64,000 bases of DNA from the NCBI GenBank assembly GCA_944472155.2, contig OX235279.1, forward strand, positions 178,601,868-178,665,867, given 5' to 3'. Source of the stretch: Trichobilharzia szidati. Its lineage: Eukaryota > Platyhelminthes > Trematoda > Strigeidida > Schistosomatidae. This document shows positions 18,101 to 64,000 of this stretch, in pieces. The translations under genes were made by a program, and so were the position numbers. The notes under the pieces are model-generated. The model saw nothing but the letters and a program-made list of their open reading frames with translations, did not search any database and was not told the origin of the DNA. Each line of letters opens with the position of its first letter. Position 1 is the first letter of the stretch.

Positions 18101-21100
18101 AAGGAGGCGTTTGTTGAGATGGAATGACCAGTGTTGACGAGGTGTTCTATTATTGCACTCCTTATGCAGCCATTACTTCCTTTCTGTAGCCACGCTGGAT
18201 AGTGTTCTTTGACCCTTTTTGACAGGATACGCGTTGAACGACCGATGTACCTGGCTCCACAGCAACAGGTGAACTGATATATACACATAGAAGTGGTCAG
18301 GTGCGGGATCTTGTCTTTTGGGCTTCTGCAGATCAGCGGGCGACTAGAGAAGGCTACTCTCAATGTTGCCGCAAAGAAAGTTCTTCTTAAAGAGGTGGAG
18401 CTTCTCCTTCTAAGGACGTCACTGAGTAGGTCTCCTTTGAAGTCGAGGTTCATATAAAGTATCATTTTTGGCACAGATGCTGTTTCTTGCTTTTGGATTT
18501 TCTGTTTGATTTTTTTGTCCACGAATCTTGATGGATAACCGTTTTGTATGAAGGTTTCTTTCAGGAAGTTTAGTTCTTCTTCCATTGTGGCAAGAGATCT
18601 AATTAAGTTTCTTTTCCGACTGGTTGGTACCCAGCTGTAGAAGCTTGTCAGTTGGCCATTGTGTGTAGTTGCAACGGTTATGATTATGAACAGTAATAAC
18701 GGGTTGTGTTCGAAGCATCGTCATTCAGTTAGTCATATTATTTCACTGTGTGATACCTCTAATTAATTTGCAGCTGTTGGTTTTCCATTAATTTCAATTT
18801 TGATCATGAAGCGACTTTAGTTAGTGAACCAATGAAAACCAACAGAGACTACTTACTGGACTGCTGTTTTGCCCTTGTTTTAAACTCTTCAGCAGCACGC
18901 TTCAATGAGACTCCATCATCGTGGGTAGAACCCAAAACTTCCAGATTACACATGGCGAGCTTGTCAACCATTGTAGCCATCCATCTATTCTAACTTCTAC
19001 CAATTGGCGATACATACATGCATACAGCGTGACCGCCAGCCAATGCCAACGGTGAGTAACTGTCCTAATGCCGAACTTCCTGGTGGAAAAATAATGTAGT
19101 AAGCCTGAGTAAGCAAACACTATTTTTTTTGTTCTGTGAGCTTCGTTTTCTATCCATCTTAGTGACAGACAGCAGTATTGATTACATCTTCTGTTACCCC
19201 CCCCTCTTCTCTCTCTGTCTCTCTCCTCTAGTTCACCTGTATTTTTGGTCATTTAGCAAAATCCGCTCATCAACGTGCTAACACATTAATTAAAGAAGGT
19301 GAATTAAGACAGAAACAAGCATTGAATAATCCTCAGGAAACTGTTGAGCACATTAAATGGTTTGAAGGCATTCTAAATGATTCCCACCAGCAACATCAAT
19401 GTGGATATCTTCCATTGTATGCTCGTTTAGCGCTAGAATCGAATCTTCATCGTATTCATAATAAAATCGGTAATGATGGTGATGCTGGTGACGTAATAGA
19501 CGGTGTTCAAATTCAGCTACATGTTGACAATTTAAGAGACCTGATTTCAAGGAATAAAAGCAGGATTTCTGATGTTATTGTCTCAGGGTTCACTTTTAAT
19601 AAACCAGATGAAGTAAGTTAGTGGGTTGGGTTTGTTTTGATTGATTAGTTATTGAATTTGTTGTAATTAGTAATTATTATCATTACTTGTTTTCCTCAGT
19701 GTGTATTTCTAATCCATGTATTTCCATATCCTGCATATTTGTTTATCAATAGACTTTGTTACTGTTGTCTTATCTATCCTCAGGTAATGAGGAATATTGG
19801 TGGACGTCTGCAGGCATCTATTGTGTATATGCTTTCAGCACGTTGATCTGTCTCTCCAAGTCTCTGAACTATATCTAAGTAATGAAAGCACTGTCGGAAT
19901 TCATCTTTCGGTTATCCTTTTTCGTTGGATAGACTAAATGAAATTCTTATTCAAATTCTCATGGTACGACAACAGTGACAACTACGGAGGACTGAATTAT
20001 TCCGTTTCGTCCTAGTTTGAATCTCCTCTAGCCATGAATATCAGTAGGCAGATACTGACCGTTGAAGTTTGTAAAAAAGTGGTATACTAAACACACACAC
20101 ATACATAGAATAACTTTAAGTCAATAGTGAAACAACTTATTCTGTACAGGATCATTCGGGATACAGAGTCTTCCACCTCTTCAGCGGCTGTTGGCAGTTG
20201 CATGGAGTTGACGACCAGCTTGCTTCACCAAGTTAGCCGATGACATTAGCCAGCGGTCGCCCTGGAACTTATGTGCTATTGGAGCGGATCGCAATTTTTG
20301 AATAGTCTACGAGCTCGCTTTGAAAACCGGAAGACTCTGAGTTCGAATTTTGATGGGTGCGTACATGTGGGGAGACCGAAGCTAGGAAGAAGCAGCTGTC
20401 TGTCTGTATTCGACATAGAACTTTGTACCGATGTGCAGCAGTTCAAGTCGCCACACTCCTTGTAGCACACAAAGCAAGAGAAGAAATGCATAATATAGAC
20501 AGTGAACAGAGGTGTGAGACAAAAGGAATAGTAATAACGAAGAACAGAACAGTTTAATTGGAAATCATAAATCACAAGGAGTGGATGCATCTGCGCCAGT
20601 CATTGAGAACAATTTTGAGCCATGTCACCAATTGTTTCCAACCGTTGGTTTTTACTGTCCCGAGGACCCTAACCAGGAAGTCTACACCTTCCTACGTTAT
20701 TTTATTTTTATTTAGACGCATTAAAACTTGGTACAATATGGCACCAAGAAGGATGCGCCACACAATAATAATAGAACAACTTAGATGAAAAAGAAAGGAA
20801 GGAAGGCAGGAAAAAAAAATATATATATAAGTAGAGAACGAATAGAGAACTTCATCTGGAAGGAAAACACTCATTCTTAACAGGTTCAAACAGTGTTCGT
20901 TAACTATCATCGGGAATGGAAGAAAGAAGGAAATCGCAACACATTCGCCATTGATTACGATTCTTGGCCATATCCGATAACGTTTCGAGCCATCGATTTG
21001 AGCTATCTCTCAGACCCCAACCAGGGAGTCGTGACACACCAACCGATGCTAATCTAGCACAGAAATCCTTCATCCCACGACGCCACGTCATGGGCTGACC

Positions 21101-24100
21101 ACGTCTCCGTCCCAGGGCTAGCGAACAGAGACCTGTACGGAAGTCTCTGGGATGACATTCGTAGCACATGTCCAAGCCACCGGAGCCGGTGTTTCCAGAT
21201 GACGACACTCAATGAATGGTGATCTCCACTGTGCTCAAACACACGCCGCCGAACCTCAGAATTACTCACGCGATGATGCCATCGAACGCAAGCAATCCTG
21301 CGGAGACAGCGGTGATTGAACACGCAGAGTCGCCTCACATCCTCAGCTCGGAGAGGCCAGGTTTCACAGGCGTAGAGCGGCGCAGCCCGCACCGAAGCAT
21401 TGTATATCCGACCTTTGACAGCCAGGCTAACGTCGCGACGGCGCCAGAGGTGGCTCAAGTTGATGTATGCCACCCTAGCTTTCATTATACGGTTGGAAAT
21501 CTCATCCGTCACCCCTCCGCCAGCACTCACACAACTACCTAGGTACACAAACTTATCGACAACTTCAAGCGGTTCACCCATAAGAGTGAGTGCAGGTACA
21601 GGCTCCTGCCAATCTTGTAACAGTACTTTGCACTTAGACGGCGCAAAGCACATACCATACTTACAGACACTGATCGCCAACTGATTAAGTGCGATTTGGG
21701 CAGCCTGCATGCTATCGCACAGTAAGACGATATCGTCTGCATACTCGAGGTCGAAAAGTCTATCTCCAGGTAGCAGATCTACACCACCTTCACAGACATC
21801 CTTCAGAGCTGACTCCGGAATGTCATCGATGGCAAAGTTAAAGAGAAATGGAGAGATTGGGCAACCCTGTCTAACCCCACTGTTGGTTGGGAACATTGGT
21901 GATAGTTGGTTGTATGCCCTCACTCTACCTGAGGTGTTTCTGTATAGGGCTTTCAAGATGTTAACAAATTTCTCAGGTACACCTCTCTCCAACAGACAGT
22001 TCCAGAGCACAGTTCTGTCCAACGAATCGAAGGCAGCCGTAATATCAAGAAACACAACGATCGTTGGCCTGCAATACGTGTGGCGGTGTTCCAACAACTG
22101 ACGAAGGGTAAACACATGATCAATGCATCCACGACCTGAACGAAACCCAGCCTGCTCTTCGCGAATCAAACCTTCACGTATTTTGTACAGTCTGCGAAGC
22201 ATGACAGCAGCCAATATTTTAGACGCAACTGGTAACAGACTGATACCACTATGGTTGTCACACGAATTACATCGACCCTTTTTAAAGATGGGGACGATAA
22301 TGGCTTCGTTCCACATTGATGGTACGCTCTCTGTCTCCCACACCCTCCTGAACAACGCAGTTAGAGCCATTATGAGAGTCTCGCCACCATCTTTAAAAAG
22401 AGCCGGGGGTAATTTGTCTGGGCCGGGCGCCTTATGGCGTTTCAGAACTTGGAGTTCCTTACGGACCTCCGCTTCGGTGGGTGGAACGGTACTAACCGAC
22501 CAAGGAGCACTCGGGCTAATGATAGTAGACATTGAAGCTGGTGGCCGGCTAAACTTTCCCGAAGTGCTCTGCCCAGCGTTCCAGGTGTCTTTTCAAGCTG
22601 GTAATTGGCGTGCCATCTGCCTCACACACCGTCTCGCTGACACCTTGTTTCTTGCTGCCGGTGGCTCGTATGAATTGGAACAGCTTCCTACTGTTGCCAG
22701 ATGCGGCAGCTGACTCCATCTCATACGCACGTTCTGACCACCAGGCTTCGCGGTCCTTACGTAAACACTGTCTAATCTTGCGCGTGAGCGCCTTTCGCTG
22801 ATTGTTGTATTCACTGCCAGCCGGAATGGACCGGCGTTCATCCATGAGTTGCAAGGAACTCGCAGAAACCCAGTGGTTGTTAGCGGAGCATTCTTTCATG
22901 CCGCAAGCGGCTACACTCGCCTTTTGCATGGCACCTTGCACATGAAGCCAGTGTTCATCTAAACTATTTGGAGGGTTGCTGGCAAGCATTGTTTTCAACT
23001 CATTCTGATATTTCAAAGAAGTAGCAGGTGCTACTAGTTTGCTCACATCAACGCTTAGACGACGGTTTTTACGAACCCCACCAAATCGTAAGACGAACTT
23101 GGCACACACTAACTCATGATCGGAGTCCAGGCATGTGCTCCAGAAGGAGCGACAGTCTTGTATGCATCCTCGCCACCGGAAACTGACCGCAATATGATCA
23201 ATCTGAGTCCAAGCTTGCTTCGCAGAGGGAGGACGCCAGGTAGCGCTACGGCGATGGCTGTGCCGGAAGTTGGTGCTGGCTAGAAATAGGTTGTGATCCG
23301 CGCAAAGCTGCAGAAGACGGTCTCCATTATCTGACCTGCGACCATGTAGTCCCCACTGACCACCTAGACGACTCTCCTCTGAGCTTAGACGCCCGACCTG
23401 TGCGTTCAAGTCCCCAGCTAGCACTACGATATCCCTCCGACCCGCCTGTTTCAACAGATCGCTCAGTTGGTAGTAAAACTCATCCTTCATTTCATCCGGG
23501 CTGCAATCCGTCGGTGCATAGGCAGAGACAACAAATAGACACCGCCTATCTGGCCTACTACTTCTTACTTTCGTATATCCTTCCAGCCTCACAGCACATA
23601 AACGACTGTTAATGGGAATCCAGTCGAGCAGTGCAGCTTCAGCTCTAGAGCTCAGTGCGACACCGACACCAGCTACGCCGGATGCCGATGCCACAGGGTC
23701 CCTGGATAAGCGCAGGTGGTACATACTACTAGAACTTCCAGATGAAGAGGATAGTCGAAGCACTTCACTGGGATCTTGAATGCGGGTCTCCGAAATGCAG
23801 CAGACATCGATAGCGAGGCTTTCCAAAGTTCTTGCCAACCCTACCTGTTGTCCGATTTGCATCAGCGTCCGAACATTGTAGGTAGCCAGCTTGAACGCAG
23901 CACGCGGTTTCAGGATATCTGTGTTAGAAGTCACATTGGGAACAACCATTTTGAGGACTACTCAATAACATCTCGAAACGACACGGATAGGCTGGGAATC
24001 TCGACAAAGGCGAAAGGCTGTCGAAGGTTAAGAAGCCAAGGTTAGCAAAGGTAAAGTACAGGAAACTATGTGTAAAAATAAAAGTAAGATAGGAAGGAAG

Positions 24101-27100
24101 TAAGTTGCTTGAGGGATCAGTATTGCTTGGAATCATTTTTACTAGCGCGCGTTGAGTTTCAATGAGAGTTCGTTGCTTCAATGCATTCATTGTGTGCGGG
24201 CTGAGGTACTGCCCGGGCGCCCAGACCGAAGCAGGTGGTTTTATTAAGGGACCACCCCGCGAGCCTTTGACTTGGAGTCTAATCCGCAAGGCAGCGGAGC
24301 AGCGTCAGGAGCTGCATTCCCATGGTTGCCGGTGACCCATATGGGTTCATACGCCATTCGATCCAATTGGAAACTGGAGCCCATCTACCTTATAGTAACT
24401 GCTTTTAGTTTAACCGCTATCCAGAAAACCTCCCTGACATGGTAGGACATGTAGAGACAGAGTCCCAGTCAGTTCAGCTTCTTGGGTCATTGTGGTATTT
24501 AAGCCCGACCACCACGACAAGGTAACAGTTATCGGCCGGGTGCCATGTTTTGGTTTGACCGCCGCTAGCTCTTTTCCAGCCTGACCCTATATCAGCTAAC
24601 ATTTCCCGTCGAGGAAGACGATGACTAGGCATACTTAACACATGTCCTAACCATCTCAGTCGATGTAACTTCACAGCCTCGTCGATTGATTTCCTCTCCT
24701 TACCTAGCACTCGGCCGATGTCTAATCTCAATATTGCTCACCTTATTATACCACTTCACGCAGGAGATAGAACGCAGACACCTATGATCAAAGACAGCTA
24801 ATCTTTTCATGTCTTCCACGAAACAGCTGCCCTTCACTCCCTCGTTTTCACTGGTTCTCTAACTGATGTCAATCAAAAACCATATATTATTGTCAGGTCA
24901 ATTGCATACATTGAATGAGTAGTTTGAAGTAAATTAGACTATTGGAATTACGGGCATTTAGTTAGATCTAGAATGATTGACCGTAATAAATTAGAGTAAT
25001 CTGCAATAAAGCTCAGTCATTTCTATGAATATTTACTTGCATGTAATTACACCATGGCAGATGAAATAGGATAAAAGTATTACAGAGTAATATCAGATGT
25101 AGAGATAGTGGGAGAGGTTACTCACCAAATCTTTGTTCATCGAATCAACATCAAATACATGCAATCAAATTGAGCTGACTAGATGAAGTCAGGCCATATA
25201 AGGTGAATCAGGAAGTCGTGAGAAAACACAATGATATAATTTATGAGTAGTAATAAATTGTCGTCAAAATGTCTTCCAGCGATTAATACTCCATACTTTA
25301 CCGTGTCTGTTATATCAGATAAACTTATCTCTTAGGTGATTATATTCTACTCTGTAGGGTCTAAATTCAGGCATGCTTTAGACCAGGAAGAGTTTGTATT
25401 GGTCACATATTCACACTTCGACAGATTGTCTTTCATAGGCGTGTTTAACGCAGGCGTCCAACAAATGCCTTATTTCTTGCCCTAAACGGGGTTTTCGAGT
25501 CCGTCGACCGAGATGTACTATGGCAATGTTTGGCCGTGAAGGGTATGCCGAGGAAATACATCGCACTGATCAAGGAACTCACTCTACTCGAACTCATGCA
25601 GTCAGCCAGGTAAGGAAGGGCCTACGGAGAGTTGTCATCTGAAGTGATAACAACCAGTGGTGTCCGTCAGGGATGTCCACTGTCCCCATTTCTCTTTAAT
25701 TTCATCATCCATGTACTAATGGACTTAAAGCTAACTGACTGGCTTCAGCGACTCAGGGCTTGACTTTTTACCAGGAAATAATCTCGTTGACTTAGAATAT
25801 GCGGATGATATAGTCCTCCCTCCTAGGTGAGCAAGACGCTGACAAAATGCCGAGTCTTCTCAACATCTTGAGCAGCAATCTCCGAATGTTTGACATGCGA
25901 TTCGCTCGTTCTGTCAAATGTAAGATGATGCTACAGGACTCGACCGGAATACATCGATACCTAGCTTAGAAATATACAGTGAATTGGTATGTGTTGTGAG
26001 TTTTCGTCTTCACCTATTTGGGTATTTTCGTCAGCCAACGCCATCTGTTTTATATCTGACTGATTTTTCTCACAAAATGGAAGGATTTCTTTTCGGATTT
26101 CTTTTTTTGGCTCTCGGATTTTGACTTTCTGTTTACCTGGTGTTCTACGAATAGTCTCTTTTTGTTTTTTGCAATTATTTCGGTCCAGCCTCATTTTTCT
26201 GCAACCTGGCCGGTTATTGTTTATGACGTGTAATCCTTGCTAGCTGTCTTTGCGCATCAGTGCATGCTTTCCTTCTTCCTTTTGCAAATGTATATTTTTT
26301 TATGGAATACTCATTTATGGCGTCATCTGCTAGTTAAGGAAATCAATCGACAATGCTCGGAATCTGCATCGACTGAGATGGTTAGGACATGTGTTACGCA
26401 TGCCTAGCCATCCATCGCCTTCCTCGACGGGCAATGTTAGCTCACATAGGGTCACGCTGGAAGAAAGCCAGTGGTGGTCAAACTAAAACATGACTTCATC
26501 AGTCAATGAAGTTCACAACAGTTAGTTTAAGCCACGTAGGAAGGTGTAGGCTCCCGTCTGGTTGCCTCCTCGCAACAGTAAATACCACTGGCTGGAGAAA
26601 ATCAGAAAATCGTTCTCGTTCTGGCTGGCGCAGATGTATCCACTCCTTGTGACTTACAATATCCAATAAGACGATATTGTTCTTCCATATTACTATTCAT
26701 TTTGCCCAGGTTCGCTCTCCCCCACCCTATTTTCAATTTTGTACAAAACAAACGTCAGACCTCACCTTGAATTGTATAGCATCATTGCTCCACCATCACT
26801 CTGAAGAGACGCCAGTCTTTTGGAAGGAGTCCGAACACATGTGGAAAAAGGAGTGAATGGTCTCCGAGATGAACTATACAATGAAAAGCTCTAGGAAACC
26901 AGTTAGTTACGCTGCCTGAGTGACTTTGAACTCGCTTCTAGTTGATTTCTACTAGAAATAACACTCACGATAGATGTGTGGCCATCTATCCTGCTTGACC
27001 TGAACTCTGGAAACACTACCTGCAGACTGTTTAGTTTGGCTCGCCCAGCCTGGTGACCGGGCTGTCTTTAACAGCACCCTTAGCTACCGAAAGGATTTAT

Positions 27101-30100
27101 TTCTTGACAATGATTTAAGGAGAATGTAGGGATAAGCAATCACATGACGACAAAGCTGTCAGGCTCTTGTCCTATGATAATCTAGTGACCCCTCTCTCTT
27201 TCACTCTGTACAGATAAACAAGTATATCGTTGATGTTTTGATTAGTTCGAAGAACTTGTGTGATCCCCTACAAGGCTAAGAGAATTAGGTCTTCTCATAC
27301 TTAGCTACCGTCTACTTAGAGGTGACCGAATTTTCCACCACAGAGATTACAAATGAACGGAATCACCCAAACACAGGTATTCTGCTATTAAGTAAGTATA
27401 GGCTTCTTCACAGTAATCCTCGGAAAATAGCTCATCCTATAGTAAAGTTTCGACTGACTGACACTGATGCCTTTTCCATGTCTCTTGCGCTTGTCGCTCA
27501 CCACTGTTTTCAATTGTTGTGGAGACTCTTGCTTAGCTTTGGTTGGATTAACCTTCTCTCCTCATCATATTCAGAGCTCGCCGGAATCAGTCGCCTCGCA
27601 TTACTCAGTTCGGATGATGCAACAGAAATCAACTGGCATTTAGTAAGCTTTGGTTTTGAGTTATGAGCAACCGTAGCAGTGGTTTCTACAACTGAATGTA
27701 TGTTATGACGAGCTTCCTCAGGATAAGTCTTGATGTCCCAAACTCAGACACACGTTCAGCGATCTCTTCCTCGAATGGGGACCTAGTGTTCCGATCAAGT
27801 TCGGGGTGTAGAGGCTTCACTGCTGCCTTTTTTCTATATCCCTTCAATCGTAAACATATACCTGTACCTAGATGTCTCTTGCTAAGTAAGCCCTCTATTA
27901 CACAAACTGAGTCCTGGGTCACTAATTGGCTGCATTCCTACTTCTCTAACAGAATGCAATACACCGTATACAAAGGCAAATCCTCCTCTGTTGTGCTCAC
28001 TGAAGCTGGTGTCCCCCAAGGTGCTGTACTCTCCCCACTTCTCTTTTCTTTCTTTCTACATGACTTACCATCTTTAAATGACATCAATTTTGTCAAATAT
28101 GCTGACGACCTAACAGTATCTTTGCCTGTCAAATGTCAAAGTGACTGCTCTAATCTAAGTGGCTTTCTATCAGAAATCAGCCAGTGGTCCAAGGAAACCA
28201 GTCTTACCTTAAACCCCTCCAAATACCAAACAGTCAATTTCACCTTTAGGTATAAATCTGACCTAAACAAACTGGTTAGCTCTCACGAGGTTTGCAACAT
28301 AGATGACACTGAAATAGGAACAAAGTCGGAAATTAAATACCTAGGCGTAATTCTATCTGCTGATCTTTCCTCGTCGTCCCATATCTTGGCGATTTCTAAG
28401 AAAATATTCCGTCTTACCTTCTACATCAAGAAGTTAAAACATTCTGGTATAACCTAGCTCTTACTGCTGCAATTCGTTAACTCTCGCATCCTGCCTATTA
28501 TTCTCTCTTGTTCCCTCTTAGTTTTTCCAGGGCTACTGAAGAAAGACTATAACATATTACGCAGGATGTTAAAGGTTGTCAGCAGGGTAAGCCACGTGCC
28601 ACTTAACCTGGTCGACAGACGGGCACTTGGACTCATGTGAAAAATGGGCTTAATCCATTTTATCTAACTCAAACCACCCTCTTCACTCACAACTCTCCCC
28701 TTGCATCTCATCAGACAAAACCAGAAAACTATATGCTCGCACTAGCAAGTACAAAAACTCAACCATACCTTACTTAGCTCGTGTTCTGTGCGATAAAGAA
28801 AGCATTAGGCGTGATACCTATAACTTATTTGTTTCTTTCTTCCGCTTACGCCAGTAGATATGATAACACCTACTTTTCTAACACCTTCAAATACTGTTCA
28901 ACTTTGGCTTTGATACCGACATGCCAATATGTTGTTGTCATAATGAACTGAGATTACCCTTAATCTATGTAGAATTTTATTTGTTGATAATGTACTAACT
29001 GGATGCAATGCTGTAGTAAAAATGGTGGGAATTCCATTCTGTACCACAAGTACTGTTTTGGAATAAAGCAAATTATTATTATTCTTGGACATTGATAATT
29101 CTCCACTTTTTATTCTTTTTTTCCTATTTTCTCAGCTTGTCCTGGCTTTTCAACAACTCAAACCATCTCAATCATTTGTTGTCTATCATAAGAATGTAGC
29201 TGTTTGTTATTTCCCAAGTCTACAAGTAAGCTAGCTGATTTAATTGAATGTGTTTATGTACCATGATATGATAACCAATCATCATTTATTCCCTAACCTT
29301 CCGAATATGGAATACATAAAGCGTCAGTGGCCCATGTCTCCATTGCACTTAGCTCTCTCTCTCTCTCTTATATCCGTCAGTCTTTCACAACTGTGTCTCC
29401 AAGACTGTGGCCTGCCTGCATGTCACTGCTGATCACCTACTTAAGTTCCATTCAAATAACTACTACCTAGCATGTAGGTTATCTGTGCATCGGTGATACA
29501 GCGGTTAGGACGCTCGCCGACCATGCACATGGTCCGGGGTTCGATCACCGGTCGACGCACTCCTTTACATTGCTGAGCCTGAAATAATGCTGGTGAAGAG
29601 GAAAGGTTAGGCATGAGGCTAGCAACCCCATCCTGTAAAATAAACACTGCTACAGAAACTTCAAGCCACTAGCTTGAAGCCCTATGTTTCACTGGGGAAC
29701 GTGAAGGAATTAAAAAAAAGGCCATAATAATATTCTAAAACAAAAAAAAGGGTTTGGGTGATTGTATAGTAAAAGAATTAATTAAGAACTATACACCTAG
29801 CTATTGTAATGCCAACTTTCATCGAAAACTACCTTCGCCAGTGCCATACTCAAGATAAGATGATCGGCTAGAAAGAATTAGCAACACAAGGAACTCTGGC
29901 TAGCAATAAACCAGTCAAGAACCTATCGCTTAACTAGTATCCTGAAGGAAATGAAGATAAGTTGGACACATGCTAAGGCGACGGTTAAGTGACATCACAC
30001 ACCATACTGCATCCAAAGCCTCAGGATGGTCGGGGGTGGGTGCCTTGCGCTGTGGCTTGACCACCCCTCCGCACACCTCTTGAAATGCTCTCATATGACC

Positions 30101-33204: not shown

Positions 33205-33440
33205 GCAACGCGCGTCAGTGGCACAGCGTTAGAATGCTCGCTAACCAGTCAGGTGGTTCAGTGTTCGGCCACCGACTCATACGTATACATCGCTAAGGTA
33301 GTAATAAGACTGGAAAACAGGGAAGGTTAGGCACGAGGCTAGCAAACCTAACCCCGAAAAATTAATTCCACTGCTACTGAAACTTCAAGTGTCCAGGTGT
33401 AAGATTTATTTTCCACTGGGAACGTAAAGAAATGCGAAAG
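33205..33440 (+). repeat. tRNA-derived SINE (degenerate)
   Basis: CGCGTCAGTGGCACAGCGTT head, GTGTTCGGCC degenerate B box, body GGAAGGTTAGGCACGAGGCTAGCA, end GGGAACGTAAAGAAATG. Confidence 0.7.
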
Positions 33441-33551
33441 AATATCACTGACAGATTCTCTCGTTTTACTCTGGAGCCGCAGATATATTCTCACCGCAGA
33501 ATTATTAAAATTGGCAGAAAGGTAAAGTCAAAATAACAGAGAAACCATCCC

Positions 33552-36500
33552 AATGTTCGGCAGTGAAGATTATGGCGAGGGAATACATCGCACTGATCAA
33601 GGAACTCACTCTACTCGAACTCATGCAGTCAGCTAGGTAAGGAAGAGCCTACGGAGCGTTGACATCTGAAGTGATAACAACCAGTGGTGTCCGTCAGGGA
33701 TGTCCACTGTCCCCATTTCTGTTTAATTTCATCATCCATGTACTAATGGACTTAACCCTAACTGACTGACTTCAGCGACTCAGGGCTTGACTTCTTACCA
33801 GGAAATAATCTCGTTGACTTGGAATATGCGGATGATATAGTCCTCCCTCCTAGGTGAGCAAGACGCTGACAAAATGCCGAGTCTTCTCAACATCTTGAGC
33901 AGCAATCTCCGAATGTTTGACATGCGATTCGCTCGTTCTGTCAAATGTAAGATGATGCTACAGGACTCGACTGGAATACATCGACACCTAGCTTAGAAAT
34001 AGGCAGTGAAGTGGTGGAGCGTGTTGACGACTTGACTTATTTGGGAAGTTGCATCAGCCAACGCCATCGGTTTGATCGCTGACGAAATCTCAGCACGGAT
34101 ACAGTTAGCACAGTTCATGCACTCACCCTCAGTATCATAGGATGAAGGGTAAGTTTTAAAATCTAATATAATCAGTAGAAAATCGATCACGGAGTCTTTA
34201 TCTAATTAATCTACACTAAATACACACAACTGCAATAACTGGACACCGATTAAAGGTATCTGGAAAATTCTGTTGCCAACAAACCTGTCTTCGTCAATGG
34301 AAATAAGCTTCATAGCCTTATAAATGCTCTATGAAAGTCAATCTCCGAGAAAAATGCCACCCTAATTAGCTCTCAGGGTAGACGACTGGAAGAATTTGAG
34401 AAACAATTTAACTGGCCTACAGCCACTCTCAACTCACCGAGCATCCAACACCTCCCTGAATCGTATATAAACACCGGTCCTCCGTCCCCAACTCAGGTTA
34501 CAAATGCTGTCTCTAATCTGAAACGAGGCAAAGCAGTGAGACCTGATCGAATGACTCCAGAGATGTTTAAGGAAGGTGGAGACAATTCACTGTCTCGGTT
34601 AACTAGGGTGTTAGGCATCGTCTGGGAATCAGAGATATTCCAGTTTGGCTGGTGTATGTCATTGGTTATCCCGGTATACAAGAAGGGAGACAAGTTTTCC
34701 TGTGATAATCACAGAGTGATTAGCTTGACTAATATCGTGGTATCTAAAGTTCTAGGCTGAATGATAATGCGTAGACTAAGGGGTTCTCGGGAGGAGCAGA
34801 CACGAGAAAATCAGGCATGCTTTAGACCAGGAAGAGTTTGTATTGGTCACATATTCACACTTCGACAGATTGTCTTTCATAGGCGTGTTTAACGCAGGCG
34901 TCCAACAAATGCCTTATTTCTTGCCCTAAACGGGGTTTTCGAGTCCGTCGACCGAGATGTACTATGGCAATGTTTGGCCGTGAAGGGTATGCCGAGGAAA
35001 TACATCGCACTGATCAAGGAACTCACTCTACTCGAACTCATGCAGTCAGCCAGGTAAGGAAGGGCCTACGGAGAGTTGTCATCTGAAGTGATAACAACCA
35101 GTGGTGTCCGTCAGGGATGTCCACTGTCCCCATTTCTGTTTAATTTCATCATCCATGTACTAATGGACTTAACCCTAACTGACTGACTTCAGCGACTCAG
35201 GGCTTGACTTCTTACCAGGAAATAATCTCGTTGACTTGGAATATGCGGATGATATAGTCCTCCCTCCTAGGTGAGCAAGACGCTGACAAAATGCCGAGTC
35301 TTCTCAACATCTTGAGCAGCAATCTCCGAATGTTTGACATGCGATTCGCTCGTTCTGTCAAATGTAAGATGATGCTACAGGACTCGACTGGAATACATCG
35401 ACACCTAGCTTAGAAATAGGGAGTGAAGTGGTGGAGCGTGTTGACGACTTGACTTATTTGGGAAGTTGCATCAGCCAACGCCATCGGTTTGATCGCTGAC
35501 GAAATCTCAGCACGGATACAGTTAGCACAGTTCATGCACTCACCCTCAGTATCATAGGATGAAGGGTAGGTTTTAAAATCTAATATAATCAGTAGAAAAT
35601 CGATCACGGAGTCTTTATCTAATTAATCTATACTAAATACACACAACTGCAATAACTGGACACCGATTAAAGGTATCTGGAAAATTCTGTTGCCAACAAA
35701 CCTGTCTTCGTCAATGGAAATAAGCTTCATAGCCTTATAACTGCTCTATGAAAGTCAATCTCCGAGAAAAATGCCACCCTAATTAGCTCTCGGGATAGAT
35801 GACTGGAAGAATTTGAGAAACAATTTAACTGGCCTACAGCCACTCTCAAATTACCAAGCATCCAACACCTCCCTGGATCGTATATAAACACCGGTCCTCC
35901 GTCTCCAACTCAGGTTACAAATGCTGTCTCTAATCTGAAACGAGGCAAAGCAGTGAGACCTGATCGAATAACTCCAGAGATGTTTAAGGACGGTGGAGAC
36001 AATTCACTGTCTCGGTTAACTAGGGTGTTAGGCATCGTTTGGGAATCAGAGATAGTCCAGTTGGGCTGGTGTGTGTCATTGATCATCCCGGTATACAAGA
36101 AGGGAGACAAGTCTTCCTGTGATAATCACAGAGGGATTAGCTTGACTAATATCGTGGTATCTAAAGTTCTAGGCTGAATGATAATGCGTAGACTAAGGGG
36201 TTCTCGGGAGGAGCAGACACGAGAAAATCAGGCATGCTTTAGACCAGGAAGAGGTTGTATTGGTCATATCTTCACACTTCGACAGATTCTGGTACATAGG
36301 CGTACTTACTGGCGTCCAACAAATGTCACATTTCTTGACCTGAAGGGGGGTTTCGATTTCGTCGACCGAGAGGTACTATGGCAATGTTTGGCCGTGAAGG
36401 GTATGCCGAGGAAATACATCTCACTAATCAAGGACTCACTCTACTCGAACTCATGCAGTCAGACAGGTAAGGAAGAGCCTACGGAGAGTTGTCATCTGAA

Positions 36501-39500
36501 GTGATAACAACCAGTGGTGTCCGTCAGGGATGTCCACTGTCCCCATTTCTCTTTAATTTCATCATCCATGTACTAATGGACTTAACCCTAACTGACTGAC
36601 TTCAGCGACTCAGGGCTTGACTTCTTACCAGGAAATAATCTCGTTGACTTGGAATATGCGGATGATATAGTCCTCCCTCCTAGGTGAGGAAGACGCTGAC
36701 AAAATGACGAGTCTTCTCAACATCTTGAGCAGCAATCTCCGAATGTTTGACATGCGATTCGCTCGTCCTGTCAAATGTAAGATGATGCTACAGGACTCGA
36801 CTGGAATACATCGACACCTAGCTTAGAAATAGGCAGTGAAGTGGTATGTGGAGCGTGTTGACGACTTTACTTATTTGGGAAGTTGCATCAGCCAACGCCG
36901 TCGGTTTGATCGCTGACGAAATCTCAGCACGGATACAGTTAGCACAGTTCATGCACTCACCCTCAGTATCATAGGATGAAGGGTAGGTTTTAAAATCTAA
37001 TATAATCAGTAGAAAATCGATCACGGAGTCTTTATCTAATTAATCTATACTAAATACACACAACTGCAATAACTGGACACCGATTAAAGGTATCTGGAAA
37101 ATTCTGTTGCCAACAAACCTGTCTTCGTCAATGGAAATAAGCTTCATAGCCTTATAACTGCTCTATGAAAGTCAATCTCCGAGAAAAATGCCACCCTAAT
37201 TAGCTCTCGGGATAGATGACTGGAAGAATTTGAGAAACAATTTAACTGGCCTACAGCCACTCTCAAATTACCAAGCATCCAACACCTCCCTGGATCGTAT
37301 ATAAACACCGGTCCTCCGTCTCCAACTCAGGTTACAAAAGCTGTCTCTAATCTGAAACGAGGCAAAGCAGTGAGACCTGATCGAATAACTCCAGAGATGT
37401 TTAAGGACGGTGGAGACAATTCACTGTCTGGGTTAACTAGGGTGTTAGGCAACGTCTGGGAATCAGAGATAGTCCAGTTGGGCTGGTGTGTGTCATTGAT
37501 CATCCCGGTATACAAGAAGGGAGACAAGTCTTCCTGTGATAATCACAGAGGGATTAGCTTGACTAATATCGTGGTATCTAAAGTTCTAGGCTGAATGATA
37601 ATGCGTAGACTAAGGGGTTCTCGGGAGGAGCAGACACGAGAAAATCAGGCATGCTTTAGACCAGGAAGAGGGTGTATTGGTCATATCTTCACACTTCGAC
37701 AGATTCTGGGACATAGGCGTACTTACTGGCGTCCAACAACTGTCACATTTCTTGACCTGAAGGCGGGATTCGATTCCGTCGACCGAGAGGTACTATGGCA
37801 ATGTTTGGCCGTGAAGGGTATGCCGAGGAAATACATCGCACTAATCAAGGACTCACTCTACTCGAACTCATGCAGTCAGCCAGGTAAGGAAGAGCCTACG
37901 GAGAGTTGTCATCTGAAGTGATAACAACCAGTGGTGTCCGTCAGGGATGTCCACTGTCCCCATTTCTCTTTAATTTCATCATCCATGTACTAATGGACTT
38001 AACCCTAACTGACTGACTTCAGCGACTCAGGGCTTGACTTCTTACCAGGAAATAATCTCGTTGACTTGGAATATGCGGATGATATAGTCCTCCCTCCTAG
38101 GTGAGGAAGACGCTGACAAAATGACGAGTCTTCTCAACATCTTGAGCAGCAATCTCCGAATGTTTGACATGCGATTCGCTCGTCCTGTCAAATGTAAGAT
38201 GATGCTACAGGACTCGACTGGAATACATCGACACCTAGCTTAGAAATAGGCAGTGAAGTGGTATGTGGAGCGTGTTGACGACTTTACTTATTTGGGAAGT
38301 TGCATCAGCCAACGCCGTCGGTTTGATCGCTGACGAAATCTCAGCACGGATACAGTTAGCACAGTTCATGCACTCACCCTCAGTATCATAGGATGAAGGG
38401 TAGGTTTTAAAATCTAATATAATCAGTAGAAAATCGATCACGGAGTCTTTATCTAATTAATCTATACTAAATACACACAACTGCAATAACTGGACACCGA
38501 TTAAAGGTATCTGGAAAATTCTGTTGCCAACAAACCTGTCTTCGTCAATGGAAATAAGCTTCATAGCCTTATAACTGCTCTATGAAAGTCAATCTCCGAG
38601 AAAAATGCCACCCTAATTAGCTCTCGGGATAGACGACTGGAAGAATTTGAGAAACAATTTAACTGGCCTACAGCCACTCTCAAATTACCAAGCATCCAAC
38701 ACCTCCCTGGATCGTATATAAACACCGGTCCTCCGTCTCCAACTCAGGTTACAAATGCTGTCTCTAATCTGAAACGAGGCAAAGCAGTGAGACCTGATCG
38801 AATAACTCCAGAGATGTTTAAGGAAGGTGGAGACAATTCACTGTCTCGGTTAACTAGGGTGTTAGGCATCGTTTGGGAATCAGAGATATTCCAGTTGGGC
38901 TGGTGTATGTCATTGATTATCCCGGTATACAAGAAGGGAGACAAGTCTTCCTGTGATAATCACAGAGGGATTAGCTTGACTAATATCGTGGTATCTAAAG
39001 TTCTAGGCTGAATGATAATGCGTAGACTAAGGGGTTCTCGGGAGGAGCAGACACGAGAAAATCAGGCATGCTTTAGACCAGGAAGAGGTTGTATTGGTCA
39101 TATATTCACACTTCGACAGATTGTGGTACATAGGCGTGTTTACAGGCGTCCAATAAATGTCTTATTTCTTGACCTGAAGGGGGTTTTCGAGTCCGTCGAC
39201 CGAGAGGTACTATGGCAATGTTTGGCCGTGAAGGGTATGCCGAGGAAATACATCGCACTAATCAAGGAACTCACTCTACTCGAACTCATGCAGTCAGCCA
39301 GGTAAGGAAGAGCCTACGGAGAGTTGTCATCTGAAGTGATAACAACCAGTGGTGTCCGTCAGGGATGTCCACTGTCCCCATTTCTCTTTAATTTCATCAT
39401 CCATGTACTAATGGACTTAACCCTAACTGACTGACTTCAGCGACTCAGGGCTTGACTTCTTACCAGGAAATAATCTCGTTGACTTGGAATATGCGGATGA

Positions 39501-42500
39501 TATAGTCCTCCCTCCTAGGTGAGCAAGACGCTGACAAAATGCCGAGTCTTCTCAACATCTTGAGCAGCAATCTCCGAATGTTTGACATGCGATTCGCTCG
39601 TTCTGTCAAATGTAAGATGATGCTACAGGACTCGACTGGAATACATCGACACCTAGCTTAGAAATAGGCAGTGAAGTGGTATGTGGAGCGTGTTGACGAC
39701 TTGACTTATTTGGGAAGTTGCATCAGCCAACGCCATCGGTTTGATCGCTGACGAAATCTCAGCACGGATACAGTTAGCACAGTTCATGCGCTCACCCTCA
39801 GTATCATAGGATGAAGGGTAAGTTTTAAAATCTAATATAATCAGTAGAAAATCGATCACGGAGCCTTTATCTAATTAATCTACACTAAATACACACAACT
39901 GCAATAACTGGAAACCCATTAAAGGTATCTGGAAAATTCTGTTGCCAACAAACCTGTCTTCGTCAATGGAAATAAGCTTCATAGCCTTATAACTGCTCTA
40001 TGAAAGTCAATCTCCGAGAAAAATGCCACCCTAATTAGCTCTCGGGATAGACGACTGGAAGAATTTGAGAAACAATTTAACTGGCCTACAGCCACTCTCA
40101 ACTCACCGAGCATCCAACACCTCCCTGAGTCGTATATAAACACCGGTCCTCCGTCCCCAACTCAGGTTACAAAAGCTGTCTCTAATCTGAAACGAGGCAA
40201 AGCAGTGAGACCTGATCGAATAACTCCAGAGATGTTTAAGGAAGGTGGAGACAATTCACTGTCTCGGTTAACTAGGGTGTTAGGCATCGTCTGGGAATCA
40301 GAGATATTCCAGTTTGGCTGGTGTATGTCATTGGTTATCCCGGTATACAAGAAGGGAGACAAGTTTTCCTGTGATAATCACAGAGTGATTGGCTTGACTA
40401 ATATGGTGGTATCTAAATTTCTAGGCTCAATAATAATGCGTAGACTAAGGGGTTCTCGGGAGGAGCAGACACGAGAAAATCAGGCATGCTTTAGACCAGG
40501 AAGAGTTTGTATTGGTCACATATTCACACTTCGACAGATTGTCTTTCATAGGCGTGTTTAACGCAGGCGTCCAACAAATGCCTTATTTCTTGCCCTAAAC
40601 GGGGTTTTCGAGTCCGTCGACCGAGATGTACTATGGCAATGTTTGGCCGTGAAGGGTATGCCGAGGAAATACATCGCACTGATCAAGGAACTCACTCTAC
40701 TCGAACTCATGCAGTCAGCCAGGTAAGGAAGGGCCTACGGAGAGTTGTCATCTGAAGTGATAACAACCAGTGGTGTCCGTCAGGGATGTCCACTGTCCCC
40801 ATTTCTCTTTAATTTCATCATCCATGTACTAATGGACTTAACCCTAACTGACTGACTTCAGCGACTCAGGGCTTGACTTCTTACCAGGAAATAATCTCGT
40901 TGACTTGGAATATGCGGATGATATAGTCCTCCCTCCTAGGTGAGGAAGACGCTGACAAAATGACGAGTCTTCTCAACATCTTGAGCAGCAATCTCCGAAT
41001 GTTTGACATGCGATTCGCTCGTTCTGTCAAATGTAAGATGATGCTACAGGACTCGACTGGAATACATCGACACCTAGCTTAGAAATAGGGAGTGAAGTGG
41101 TGGAGCGTGTCGACCACCTGACTTATTTGAGAAGTTGCATCAGCCAACGTCATCGGTTTGATCGCTGACGAATTCTCAGCACGGATACAGTTAGCATAGT
41201 TCATGCGCTCACCCTCAGTATAATACGATGAAGGCTAAGTTTTGAAATCTAATATAACCAGTAGAAAATCGATCACGGAGCCTTTATCTAATTAACCTAC
41301 ACTAAATACACACAACTGCAATAACTGGAAACCCATTAAAGATATCTGGAAAATTCTGTTGCCAATAAACCTGTCTTTGTCAATGGAAGTAATCTTCATA
41401 GCCTTATAAATGCTCTATGAAAGTCAATCTCCGAGAAAAATGCCACCCTAATTAGCTCTCGGGATAGACGACTGGAAGAATTTGAGAAACAACTTAACTG
41501 GCCTACAGCCACTCTCAACTCACCGAGCATCCAACACCTCCCTGAATCGTATATAAACACCGGTCCTCCGTCCCCAACTCAGGTTACAAAAGCTGTCTCT
41601 AATCTGAAACGAGGCAAAGCAGTGGGACCTGATCGAATGACTCCAGAGATGTTTAAGGACGGTGGAGACAATTCACTGTCTGGGTTAACTAGGGTGTTAG
41701 GCAACGTCTGGGAATCAGAGATAGTCCAGTTGGGCTGGTGTGTGTCATTGATCATCCCGGTATACAAGAAGGGAGACAAGTCTTCCTGTGATAATCACAG
41801 AGGGATTAGCTTGACTAATATGGTGGTATCTAAAGTTCTAGGCTCAATGATAATGCGTAGACTAAGGGGTTCTCGGGAGGAGCAGACACGAGAAAATCAG
41901 GCATGCTTTAGACCAGGAAGAGGGTGTATTGGTCATATCTTCACACTTCGACAGATTCTGGGACATAGGCGTACTTACTGGCGTCCAACAACTGTCACAT
42001 TTCTTGACCTGAACGCGGGATTCGATTCCGTCGACCGAGAGGTACTATGGCAATGTTTGGCCGTGAAGGGTATGCCGAGGAAATACATCGCACTAATCAA
42101 GGAACTCACTCTACTCGAACTCATGCAGTCAGCCAGGTAAGGAAGAGCCTACGGAGAGTTGTCATCTGAAGTGATAACAACCAGTGGTGTCCGTCAGGGA
42201 TGTCCACTGTCCCCATTTCTCTTTAATTTCATCATCCATGTACTAATGGACTTAACCCTAACTGACTGACTTCAGCGACTCAGGGCTTGACTTCTTACCA
42301 GGAAATAATCTCGTTGACTTGGAATATGCGGATGATATAGTCCTCCCTCCTAGGTGAGCAAGACGCTGACAAAATGCCGAGTCTTCTCAACATCTTGAGC
42401 AGCAATCTCCGAATGTTTGACATGCGATTCGCTCGTTCTGTCAAATGTAAGATGATGCTACAGGACTCGACTGGAATACATCGACACCTAGCTTAGAAAT

Positions 42501-43262
42501 AGGCAGTGAAGTGGTGGAGCGTGTTGACGACTTGACTTATTTGGGAAGTTGCATCAGCCAACGCCATCGGTTTGATCGCTGACGAATTCTCAGCACGGAT
42601 ACAGTTAGCACAGTTCATGCGCTCACCCTCAGTATAATAGGATGAAGGCTAAGTTTTGAAATCTAATATAACCAGTAGAAAATCGATCACGGAGCCTTTA
42701 TCTAATTAATCTACACTAAATACACACAACTGCAATAACTGGAAACCCATTAAAGATATCTGGAAAATTCTGTTGCCAATAAACCTGTCTTTGTCAATGG
42801 AAGTAATCTTCATAGCCTTATAAATGCTCTATGAAAGTCAATCTCGGAGAAAAATGCCGCCCTAACTAGCTCTCAGGATAGACGACTGGAAGAATTTGAG
42901 AAACAACTTGACTGGCCTACAGCCACTCTCAACTCACCGAGCATCCAACACCTCCCTGAGTCGTATATAAACACCGGTCCTCCGTCCCCAACTCAGGTTA
43001 CAAAAGCTGTCTCTAATCTGAAACGAGGCAAAGCAGTGAGACCTGATCGAATAACTCCAGAGATGTTTAAGGACGGTGGAGACAATTCACTGTCTGGGTT
43101 AACTAGGGTGTTAGGCAACGTCTGGAAATCAGAGATAGTCCAGTTGGGCTGGTGTGTGTCATTGATCATCCCGGTATACAAGAAGGGAGACAAGTCTTCC
43201 TGTGATAATCACAGAGGGATTAGCTTGACTAATATGGTGGTATCTAAAGTTCTAGGCTCAAT
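33552..43262 (+). repeat. Tandem array of a 1417-bp RT-derived unit (about 6.9 copies)
   Basis: The RT segment GKAVRPDR recurs at 34536, 35953, 37370, 38787, 40205, 41622 and 43036, giving spacings of 1417, 1417, 1417, 1418, 1417 and 1414. Each unit carries the linker and fingers/palm part of an RTE-like RT (LNSPSIQHLPESYINTGPPS, YKKGDKSSCDNHRGISLTN, ACFRPGRGCIGHIFTLRQI, VRQGCPLSPFLFNFI), ending in DEISARIQLA and then about 150 bp of non-RT sequence that bridges to the next unit. The array begins and ends mid-unit. Shared stops (for example GGCTGA ahead of ATAATG in copies 1-4) mean that no copy encodes a full RT. Copies differ at few sites, suggesting recent amplification. A collapsed or expanded assembly cannot be excluded. 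Confidence 0.9.
41622..42140 (+). pseudogene. Longest open RT frame in the array (172 codons)
   Basis: In this copy the codon that is TGA in copies 1-4 reads TCA, so MGPDRMTPEMFKDGG runs on through NQACFRPGRGCIGHIFTLRQ and motif A (VTFLDLNAGFDSVDREVLW) to a stop at MQSAR. Motifs B and C lie beyond this stop, so it is not a working enzyme. Confidence 0.75.
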
Positions 43263-43284
43263 TATTATATATAATGCTCTCGGT

Positions 43285-45570
43285 AACCAATTAACTAGTC
43301 TGCCTTAATGGCTTTGAGGTCGCTTCTAGTTTTTTTATCTACAACTAACGCTTGCGATTGATGCCTGGCTATCTATCCTGCTAGACGTTAATTCTGTACA
43401 CACTACCTGCAGATTTTTTATTTTGCCTCCATTAACCTGGTGGCCAGGCTGTCCTTAACAACACCCTTAACCACCGAAATGATGTATTTTACTGATGTAT
43501 TTCTTGACAATGTTTTAAGGAGAATGTAGGGATAAGCAATCACATCACGACAAAGCTGTCGGACTCATATCCTATGATAATCTAGTGACCCACCTATCTT
43601 TCACTCTCCTCAGATAAACAAGTGTATCGTTGAATTTCTGATTGGTTCGAAGAACTTCTGTGATCCCCTACAAGGCTAAGGGAATTAGGTCTTCTCATAC
43701 TTAGCTACCGTCTACTTAGAGGTAACCGAATTTTCTGCCACAGATATTACGAATGAACGGAATCATCCAAACATATGTATTATGTCATTAAGTAAGTTTA
43801 GGCTTCTTCACAGTAATCCTCGAAAACTAGCTCATCGTATAGCAACGTTTTGACTGCGGCTGACATTGATACTTTTTCCATCTCTCTAGCCTTTATCGCT
43901 CACCACTGTTTTCAATTGTTGTGGAGACTTTTGTTTAGCTTTGGTTGGATTAACCTTCTCTCTTCATCATGTTCAGAGCTCGCCTGAATCAGTCTCCTCG
44001 CATCACTCAGTTCGGATGATGCAATAGAAATCAACTGGCATTTAGTAAGCTTTGGTTTTGAGCAACCGTAGCAGTGGTTTCTACAGCTGACTGTATGTTA
44101 TGATGAGCTTCCTCAGGATAAGTCTTGATGTCCCAAACTCAGATACACGTTCAGCGACCTCTTCCTCGAATGGGGACCTAGTGTTCCAATCAAGTTCGGG
44201 GTGTAGAGGCTTCACTGCTGCCTTTTTTCTACATCCCTTCAATCGTAAACATATACCTGCACCTAGATGTCTCTTGCAAAATAAGCTCTCTATTACACAA
44301 ACTGAGTCCTGGGTCACTAACTGGCTGCATTCCTACTTCTCTAACAGAATGCAATACACCGTATACAAAGGTAAATCCTCCTCTACTGTGCTCAATGAAG
44401 TTAGTGTCCCCCAAGGTGCTGTACTCTCCCCACTTCTCTTTTCTTTCTTTCTACATGACTTACCATCTCCAAATGACATTAATTTTGTCAAATATGCTGA
44501 CGACCTAACAGTATCTTTGCCTGTCAATTGTCAAAGTGACTGCTCTAAACTGAATGGCTTTCTATCAGAAATCAGCCTGTGGTTCAAGTAAAACAGTTTT
44601 ACCTTAAACCCTTCCAAATACCAAACAGTCAATTTCACCTTTAGGCATAAATCCGACCCAAACAAACTGGTTGGCTCTCACGAGGTGTGCAACATAGATG
44701 GCACTGAAATAGAAACCATTTCGGAAATTAAGTACCTAGGCGTAATTCTATCTGGTGATCTCTCCTGGTCGTCTCATATCTTGGCGATTTCTAAGAAAAT
44801 ATTCCGTCTTACCTTCTACATCAAGAAGTTAAAACATTCTGGTATAACCTAACCCTTACTCCCACAGTTCGTTAACTCTCGCATTCTGCCTATTATTTAT
44901 TCTCTATTGTTCCCCCTTAGTTTTTCCCGGTTCACTGAAGAAAGACTATACCTTATTACGCAGGATGTTAAAGGTTGTCAGCAGGGTAAGCAACGTGCCA
45001 CTTAACCAGTTTGTTAATATTCTGGTCGACAGGCACATGGACTCATGTGAAAAATGGGCTGAATCCATTTTATCTAACTCACACCGCCCTCTTCACTCAC
45101 AACTCTCCCCTTGCATCTCATCAGGCAAAACCAGAAGCTTATATAGAAAACTATATGCTCGCACCAGCAAGTACAAAACTCAACCATACCCTACTTAGCT
45201 CGTGTTCTGTGCGACAAAGAAAGCATTAGGCGTGACACCTATAATTCATTAAATAGTCAGTAGAACAACTTGATCTCGTCTTTCCAACTCATATCATTTA
45301 TAGATACAACATTTTCTTTCTTTCTTTTCCTTTACTCTCTCTCTTTTCTGTTATGTGGTGCTTTTTTTTTTTCTTCCGCTTACGCCAGTAAATATGATAG
45401 CACCTACTTTTCTAACACCTTCAAACACTGTTCAACTTTGGCTTTGCTACCAACATCCAAATATGTTGTTGTCATAATGAACTGAGATTTCCTTAATTTA
45501 TGTAGAATTTTATTTATTGATAATGTACTAACTGGATGCAATACTGTAGTAAAAATGCTGAGAATTCCAT
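43285..45570 (+). mobile_element. CR1-like non-LTR fragment, second copy
   Basis: Homologous to 26870-29085 throughout (VPQGAVLSPLLFSFFLHDLP, FVKYADDLTVSLPVNCQSDC), with a frame end at 44591 and other mutations. The first copy retains a longer frame. The right part includes an extra T-rich insert (45300-45375). Confidence 0.75.
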
Positions 45571-46407: not shown

Positions 46408-60091
<13,684 letters not shown>

Positions 60092-60529
60092 AGCATCAAA
60101 GAATAACGACAAGATAGTTATGTCTATGAGAATACAAATAATCATATTAAGTGTACGTATGCAATGAACAAACATTTAATTTCAACACTAATAAGAAACG
60201 AATCCAAGTGCGTACCATAAAACTTCTGCAGGGAAAACGTTGACTATTAGTATCACCCCAATAATACAGCTTAAGTCAAAACACTGTGCTAATAAAGATG
60301 ATCAACACCAATTTAAATTCTAACACTGATATATTTAATAAACCGATCACGAACATACGACACAAAACAAGGAAAAGGCAAATTGACAAAAGAACACCAC
60401 CATACCAGAAGCGTAGAAGGAAATACAGCAAAATACAAGGTTAACCAGATGACAAAAAATTACAAAGCCAAAATGAATTCCACTTCATCATAAAAAATTC
60501 ACATAAAATTCAACGCGAACAAATAGCGT

Positions 60530-63146: not shown

Positions 63147-64000
63147 TCTCATACGTCACACCCTCGCCCTGAATTACCAATCACTTCACTTCATAGAGAT
63201 AGATAAATGGGGATAAAATACAGTTGATTATGCACCACACACACGTGTCCTGCAAGTTATACTAGGAAAGTAATGCACATCGATATTTTAACAGCCACCT
63301 CAGGAAGTCCAACTCGAGTATTATCAGATGTGACGGTTGCTGTGAAAGCATCACAGGTGACGTTTCCCTTCTGAAACGTCTGTATCACGAACAGCCACAT
63401 ACGAGACGAAGAAGTGGATATGCAGGTGTTCATATGAGTGAGGACTACGACTACAACCCGTGGGCGTCTCCATGGATTCCTGCTCCAACTGCTTCCACCT
63501 GAAAATCTAGGTAATGTATTCAGGTCTCTCTCCCCCACTCCTACAATCCTTTCGTCCCATAACATAGTTACTACGTGAAAGACGTCTTCCAGATAGCTGA
63601 ATTCTAACTTCACTGGACATTGGATGAAAATGTGCACTAAACATTCAGTCTGTTATGGTGAAATTAAACGAACTCGTCCGAGGAGCTACTTCACGTGCTC
63701 CAAACGTTGTTTCACTTACGCCTGTTGACCGAGACACACACTGAGACTTAAGTGCGCAGGGCACTTGATGAAAACACCTGAGGCAAGATGTCTGAAGGAG
63801 CAATGACGGAGTGGAGCTATTCATTCGTTTCAAGAAGCAGATTCAAATATTCACTTTCAACACACTCAAGTAGTCAGAAAGCACAACAAATTAACTGCAA
63901 GTGCCTATCTAGCCAACGAATACAGAGTGAAGGGAGCACTGTGATAAGATTTGGATGAAGAGCGAAAGAAATGTAGAATCAGTCAAGTGTGCAGTGATTT
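63147..64000. repeat. Second copy of the 2617-bp unit (cut by window end)
   Basis: Starts near CTCATACGTCACACCCTCGC. The same minus frames recur at 63637-63257 and 63833-63645 as in the first copy (61020-60640, 61216-61028). Confidence 0.85.

Follow-up and report, generated by a model that had tools for sequence, protein, structure and literature searches.

A 64,000-nucleotide stretch of Trichobilharzia szidati DNA (the window) contains a piece of a reverse transcriptase (RT) repeated head to tail, which raises the question of what kind of structure this is and how it arose. The array was mapped by autocorrelation and unit alignment. Between 31 and 47 kb, the autocorrelation peaks at lag 1417, and cutting from 33552 gives 6.85 head-to-tail units in the assembly. 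An earlier note on this DNA had placed nearly seven copies at 33552..43262, with unit-to-unit spacings of 1417, 1417, 1417, 1418, 1417 and 1414 bp; these figures are exact. The array is absent from the Tandem Repeats Finder list because the longest period there is 500. The array and its units are as follows, with RT residues numbered on the reference protein P0070.

33552..43262, + strand: whole tandem array, 6.85 units (autocorrelation, unit alignment)
33552..34968, + strand: unit 1, 1417 bp, RT part from about residue 242 (unit alignment, tblastn)
34969..36385, + strand: unit 2, 1417 bp (unit alignment)
36386..37802, + strand: unit 3, 1417 bp (unit alignment)
37803..39220, + strand: unit 4, 1418 bp (unit alignment)
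39221..40637, + strand: unit 5, 1417 bp (unit alignment)
40638..42051, + strand: unit 6, 1414 bp (unit alignment)
42052..43262, + strand: unit 7, truncated, 1211 bp, stopping in the RT at about residue 173-183 (unit alignment, tblastn)

In pairwise comparison the units are 94.6–98.5% identical, that is, 1.5–5.4% different, and the difference between units peaks at 12.3% in one ~200-bp block. The spread of the array can therefore be called recent, as it had been, only in a relative sense. The very even spacing is correct as a set of figures but overstates how uniform the unit sequences are. Specifically, the units differ by a 4-bp indel (GTAT), a 3-bp indel (ACG) and one 1-bp indel, which partly cancel out, so the evenness is partly coincidental.

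Comparison by tblastn with P0070, a 602-aa RT protein of Trichobilharzia regenti, defines the composition of the unit. It consists of an internal fragment of a non-LTR retrotransposon RT, corresponding to P0070 residues 29-418, and a spacer of ~218 bp. The earlier view of an internal RT piece fused to other DNA is thus borne out; the ~150 bp assigned to that other DNA is too short, the gap between tblastn blocks on P0070, measured on units 6 and 7, being ~218 bp. The spacer and the longest open RT frame of the array lie next to each other.

41203..41420, + strand: spacer in unit 6, ~218 bp without RT homology, one per unit in 7/7 units (tblastn gap, 22-mer count)
41421..42140, + strand: open RT frame of 239 aa between stops, the longest of the array, spanning the border of units 6 and 7 (Pfam RVT_1, E 2.5e-9)

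A Pfam scan of two other array frames returned no family. A 22-mer from the spacer has seven exact matches in the window, all within the array, and none in 100 dinucleotide shuffles. The spacer was considered as belonging to the element or to some other repeat, and no convincing match was found: its best match in the array-masked window has an E value of 2.0 (75% over 28 bp), and its frames gave a single chance-level match among 172 proteins (blastp, E 0.96). With that match as the sole result from the spacer frames, and with P0070-type homology in the RT part beginning at residue 29, the unit has no endonuclease domain. An intron reading of the spacer is disfavoured, as the GTAAGT-like word at its start is altered in units 2-4 and 6-7.

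An Rfam scan of the window found no family at gathering score, hammerheads included, and a hammerhead retrozyme was rejected for this reason. At E values up to 5, the scan of 33400-36500 returned nothing but mir-3492. Its sub-threshold matches, at 34029-34110 and 35446-35527 on the minus strand (30 bits compared with a gathering score of 44; E 0.0018), lie inside the RT coding part. Our guess is that the mir-3492 family may itself derive from a transposon.

The RT part of the units is broken in a uniform manner. All seven units carry a +4-nt frameshift, with 10 nt instead of the necessary 6 between the Ser and Gly codons of the P0070 motif SPNGLI, and the RT also carries further stops, so that an intact RT reading frame is absent from the units. 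Polymorphic sites are distributed 9/9/12 over codon positions 1/2/3 (30 sites in columns 794-1290 of six units, all in the first RT half). Variation is thus spread about evenly over the three positions, and within the limits of such small numbers the units show no trace of constraint on the protein. A gene or an array of functional RTs was rejected on these two grounds, the frameshift in 7/7 units and the distribution over codon positions.

The best unit copy has 75% amino-acid identity to P0070 over residues 29-309, and the unit 6 ORF has 76%; divergence between units is far lower than divergence between the units and this intact relative. The frame at 41421-42140 is closest to Trichobilharzia proteins (71–77%), the best long Schistosoma matches being ~60%. 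The word schistosome, used in the earlier note, is thus correct at the level of the family, the closest named relatives being Trichobilharzia proteins. The RT of the units is taken to be RTE-like, akin to SR2, SR3 and SjR2.

The +4 shift is also found outside the array. Among the matches listed, three plus-strand copies outside the array cover the SPNGLI motif; CAACGCCATC is present in those at 26015 and 52950 and absent from the one at 15212. Among the 172 proteins, the terminal peptides of two, P0001 (T. regenti, 13 cluster members) and P0003 (T. szidati), fit the +4 shift of the units, as judged from the protein sequences, while T. regenti P0070 and P0103 are without the insertion. P0001 shares 99% identity with P0070 over 98% of its own length, and a simple old dead lineage is disfavoured because P0001 is so close to a protein free of the insertion. 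A dead frameshifted RT subfamily common to several species would be one possibility, with recurrence or conversion as alternatives.

The pattern of variation defines how the units have exchanged sequence. Among the six full units, 100 columns are polymorphic and 61 of these are informative; 775/1830 pairs of informative columns are incompatible with one tree. Only 9/60 adjacent informative pairs are incompatible, compared with 25.4 expected (0/5000 permutations as low), so whole blocks moved between units. Consistent with this, the variation is clustered, with a polymorphism-free run of 137 columns from column 171 (p 0.0026) and 14 polymorphisms in the densest 75-column bin (p 0.008). In the block 575-960, units 2, 3 and 4 are only 0.3–0.5% apart.

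Neighbouring units are the most alike. Mean divergence at separations of one to six units is 2.03, 2.78, 3.15, 2.98, 3.89 and 3.89% (columns 4-1215). The increase is not strictly monotonic, units four apart (2.98%) differing less than units three apart (3.15%); units 1 and 5, at 98.2%, form one of the closest pairs overall, which fits the dip at four-unit separation. The longest exact run between neighbouring units (lag 1417) is 753 bp; between units two apart (lag 2835) it is 489 bp, and between units four apart (lag 5669) 374 bp. The mosaic test and identity by separation indicate that the units have evolved in concert, and the mosaic copies together with the likeness of neighbours support growth and homogenisation by unequal exchange or conversion. 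Two modes of spread had been proposed at the outset; these observations uphold unequal exchange and are compatible with rolling-circle copying without supporting it.

Mosaic copies could also result from chimeric joining, in which case the assembly would have chained a single, double or several dispersed copies into a false array. Each unit is 1.5–5.4% different from the others, with shared indels and ordered blocks, and within the window the spacer 22-mer is confined to the array, which makes an artefact highly improbable.

Two related RT copies are dispersed in the window.

25363..26650, + strand: copy A, a single related RT copy upstream of the array, P0070 residues 191-602 (repeat search, tblastn)
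52790..53580, + strand: second dispersed relative, P0070 residues 345-602, carrying CAACGCCATC (repeat search, tblastn)

The second relative is 81–83% identical to the units over ~200 bp. Copy A is a mosaic: ~366 bp are near-identical to array sequence, followed by private changes and then by a strongly diverged 3' half that reaches the element end. Specifically, its first ~366 bp have one mismatch to the unit pairs 1/2 and 5/6. In the alignment of 25363-26060, the first 300 columns have one mismatch to these two pairs and 17–31 to the remaining four; in the last 99 columns, every unit pair differs from copy A by 20–31. This suggests ectopic exchange, in either direction, between the array and copy A, ~9 kb upstream. 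Together, the 374-bp exact run at four-unit offset and the block in common with copy A suggest multi-unit exchange and ectopic conversion.

Several other repeats and frames were observed in the window. Another RT-bearing repeat is present in two copies (88.5%), at 26885-28823 and 43273-45244, directly downstream of copy A and of the array, respectively, in the same orientation. A near-complete non-LTR element lies at 21054-23961 on the minus strand, its endonuclease and RT frames separated by a frameshift; the RT frame (21054-22592) has 93% identity to T. regenti P0089, compared with 71% for the best long match in Schistosoma and up to 78% over part of the frame, which, together with the frame at 41421-42140, points to an origin in or near Trichobilharzia. 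An 857-bp direct repeat (60527-61383 and 63144-64000; 99.65% identity) reaches the window end and possibly represents two LTRs or another tandem duplication. The minus strand also carries an ISXO2-like transposase domain at 3329-3802 (DDE_Tnp_IS1595, E 2e-23) and, at 52242-52709, a frame that resembles an exon and encodes a protein kinase domain (E 4.3e-9), probably part of a host gene. Published Trichobilharzia PLE primers have no match in the window at up to 4 mismatches.

The edges of the array bear on its origin. The left edge starts within the RT; the right edge, mid-RT, adjoins the RT-bearing repeat starting at 43273. No target-site duplication of the whole array was found, the only word common to both flanks being the 8-bp AATTATTA at 33500 and 43260. 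This word is equalled or beaten in 35% of 1248 random flank pairs, which is chance level, and insertion of the whole array with a target-site duplication was rejected. With its frameshifted RT, no endonuclease and no target-site duplication, the locus is no ordinary retroelement insertion, as the earlier note had held.

Most of these observations are accommodated by a small satellite-like array of a broken RTE-like fragment and a spacer, which probably began by out-of-register recombination between two nearby direct copies; unequal crossing over and gene conversion then likely enlarged it and kept its units alike. At founding, two direct copies of the RT fragment flanking the spacer would have recombined out of register, and the resulting unit would contain a single RT fragment as the repeat, joined to the spacer as the DNA that had separated the two repeats. 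Unequal crossing over and gene conversion would account for the later growth and homogenisation, and the start of unit 1 in mid-RT would fit a 5'-truncated insertion. The two founding copies are not visible, because the array begins mid-RT on the left and is truncated on the right. Several findings count against this account: both diagnostic outer ends of the array are missing, divergence does not rise strictly with separation, units 1 and 5 are unusually alike, and the spacer has no convincing source match in the masked window or among the 172 proteins.

Exchange after founding would look alike had the founder been a circle or a replication slip. In the former case, a circle of ~1417 bp closed at the spacer would have been copied by a rolling-circle or extrachromosomal route into a multimer and inserted, with the units diverging and exchanging later. 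Insertion of a multimer in one step does not by itself predict that neighbours are most alike, and the flanks, with a common word at chance level, show no target-site duplication. The very regular unit length, the position of the array ends at unrelated points within the unit and a spacer that could hold the closure point would all fit a circle, for which no RNA-circle-making ribozyme was found in the window (Rfam). We consider a circular founder unlikely. Founding by recombination of two direct copies probably gave rise to an array for which no function is expected beyond that of a recombination substrate; silencing or small-RNA production from it is possible.

The array is real, and its structure is of an already-known kind, comparable to the transposon-derived satellites of Schistosoma mansoni. 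It has head-to-tail copies, a unit derived from part of a transposable element (TE) and concerted evolution, as TE-derived satellites do. Schistosome sex chromosomes are rich in satellites with retrotransposon pieces. By itself, the array is an ordinary outcome of repeat-mediated recombination. Being short, with exchange between units that can be traced and with a copy 9 kb away that matches in part, it provides a readable early stage of chimeric units, and it supplies a junction and a spacer as testable markers. The earlier statement that the array is not a simple satellite is too strong, since several S. mansoni W-element satellites hold non-LTR pieces, according to the available text of two papers (PMC3701142, PMC8490949).

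The array might also belong, as one arm, to a larger family of W-element-like satellites in the genus, dispersed or sex-linked, with this locus as a small euchromatic block. In the portions available of the same papers, the W-elements of S. mansoni are arranged in tandem, reach a unit length of 1,294 bp and include part of a retrotransposon (PMC3701142, PMC8490949), and small blocks of up to five tandem repeats occur on autosomal scaffolds (PMC3701142). The spacer 22-mer has no exact match in viral_contigs or genome_contigs, which says little against such a family as neither is a fluke collection; the absence of a match for unit 3 in plasmids, also not a fluke collection, is similarly weak. 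We regard membership of such a family as quite unlikely. Doubtful to the same degree is the idea that an avian schistosome shows here the birth of a young W-element-type satellite. In that case a frameshifted RTE subfamily in more than one Trichobilharzia species would seed RT-plus-spacer satellites, conversion from dead copies in the vicinity, copy A for one, would recruit or overwrite copies, and female-linked expansion would occur elsewhere in the genome.

In a literature search that was not exhaustive, the accessible parts of Trichobilharzia papers, including one on a Penelope-like RT (PMC4465651), contain no description of the array. The closest known structures are the W-specific repeats of S. 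mansoni. As far as the available text goes, 36 were described (W1-W36), including W9, 803 bp, a LINE similar to SjR2 (PMC3701142), and they were reclassified into 19 families (WEF), among which W5.2 (1,104 bp) holds 120 bp of the Perere-2 RT gene, W11.2 (1,294 bp) holds 150 bp of Perere-3, and four WEFs contain hammerhead-like sequences (PMC8490949). The array resembles them in having a composite tandem unit, up to ~1.3 kb there, with a partial retrotransposon inside, a likeness in structure. Unlike them, it belongs to a different genus, has ~1.2 kb of RT in a 1.4-kb unit and is without a hammerhead (Rfam).

TE dimers and unequal exchange are routes to satellites according to the accessible part of a review (PMC12628747), which also describes the hobo case of McGurk and Barbash and the model of Wong and Choo. 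As in these, two TE copies out of register would yield a tandem array of TE part and intervening DNA. The elements there are other ones; the unit of the present array comes from the interior of a LINE coding region, and its founding pair is not visible. The schistosome non-LTR retrotransposons SR2, SR3 and SjR2 are placed in the RTE clade, a name for which PMC1291365 is one basis. The RT of the units aligns with intact P0070-type schistosomatid RTs; unlike these elements, the unit has a frameshifted RT and no target-site duplications, and it contains neither an endonuclease nor the 5' or 3' end of an element.
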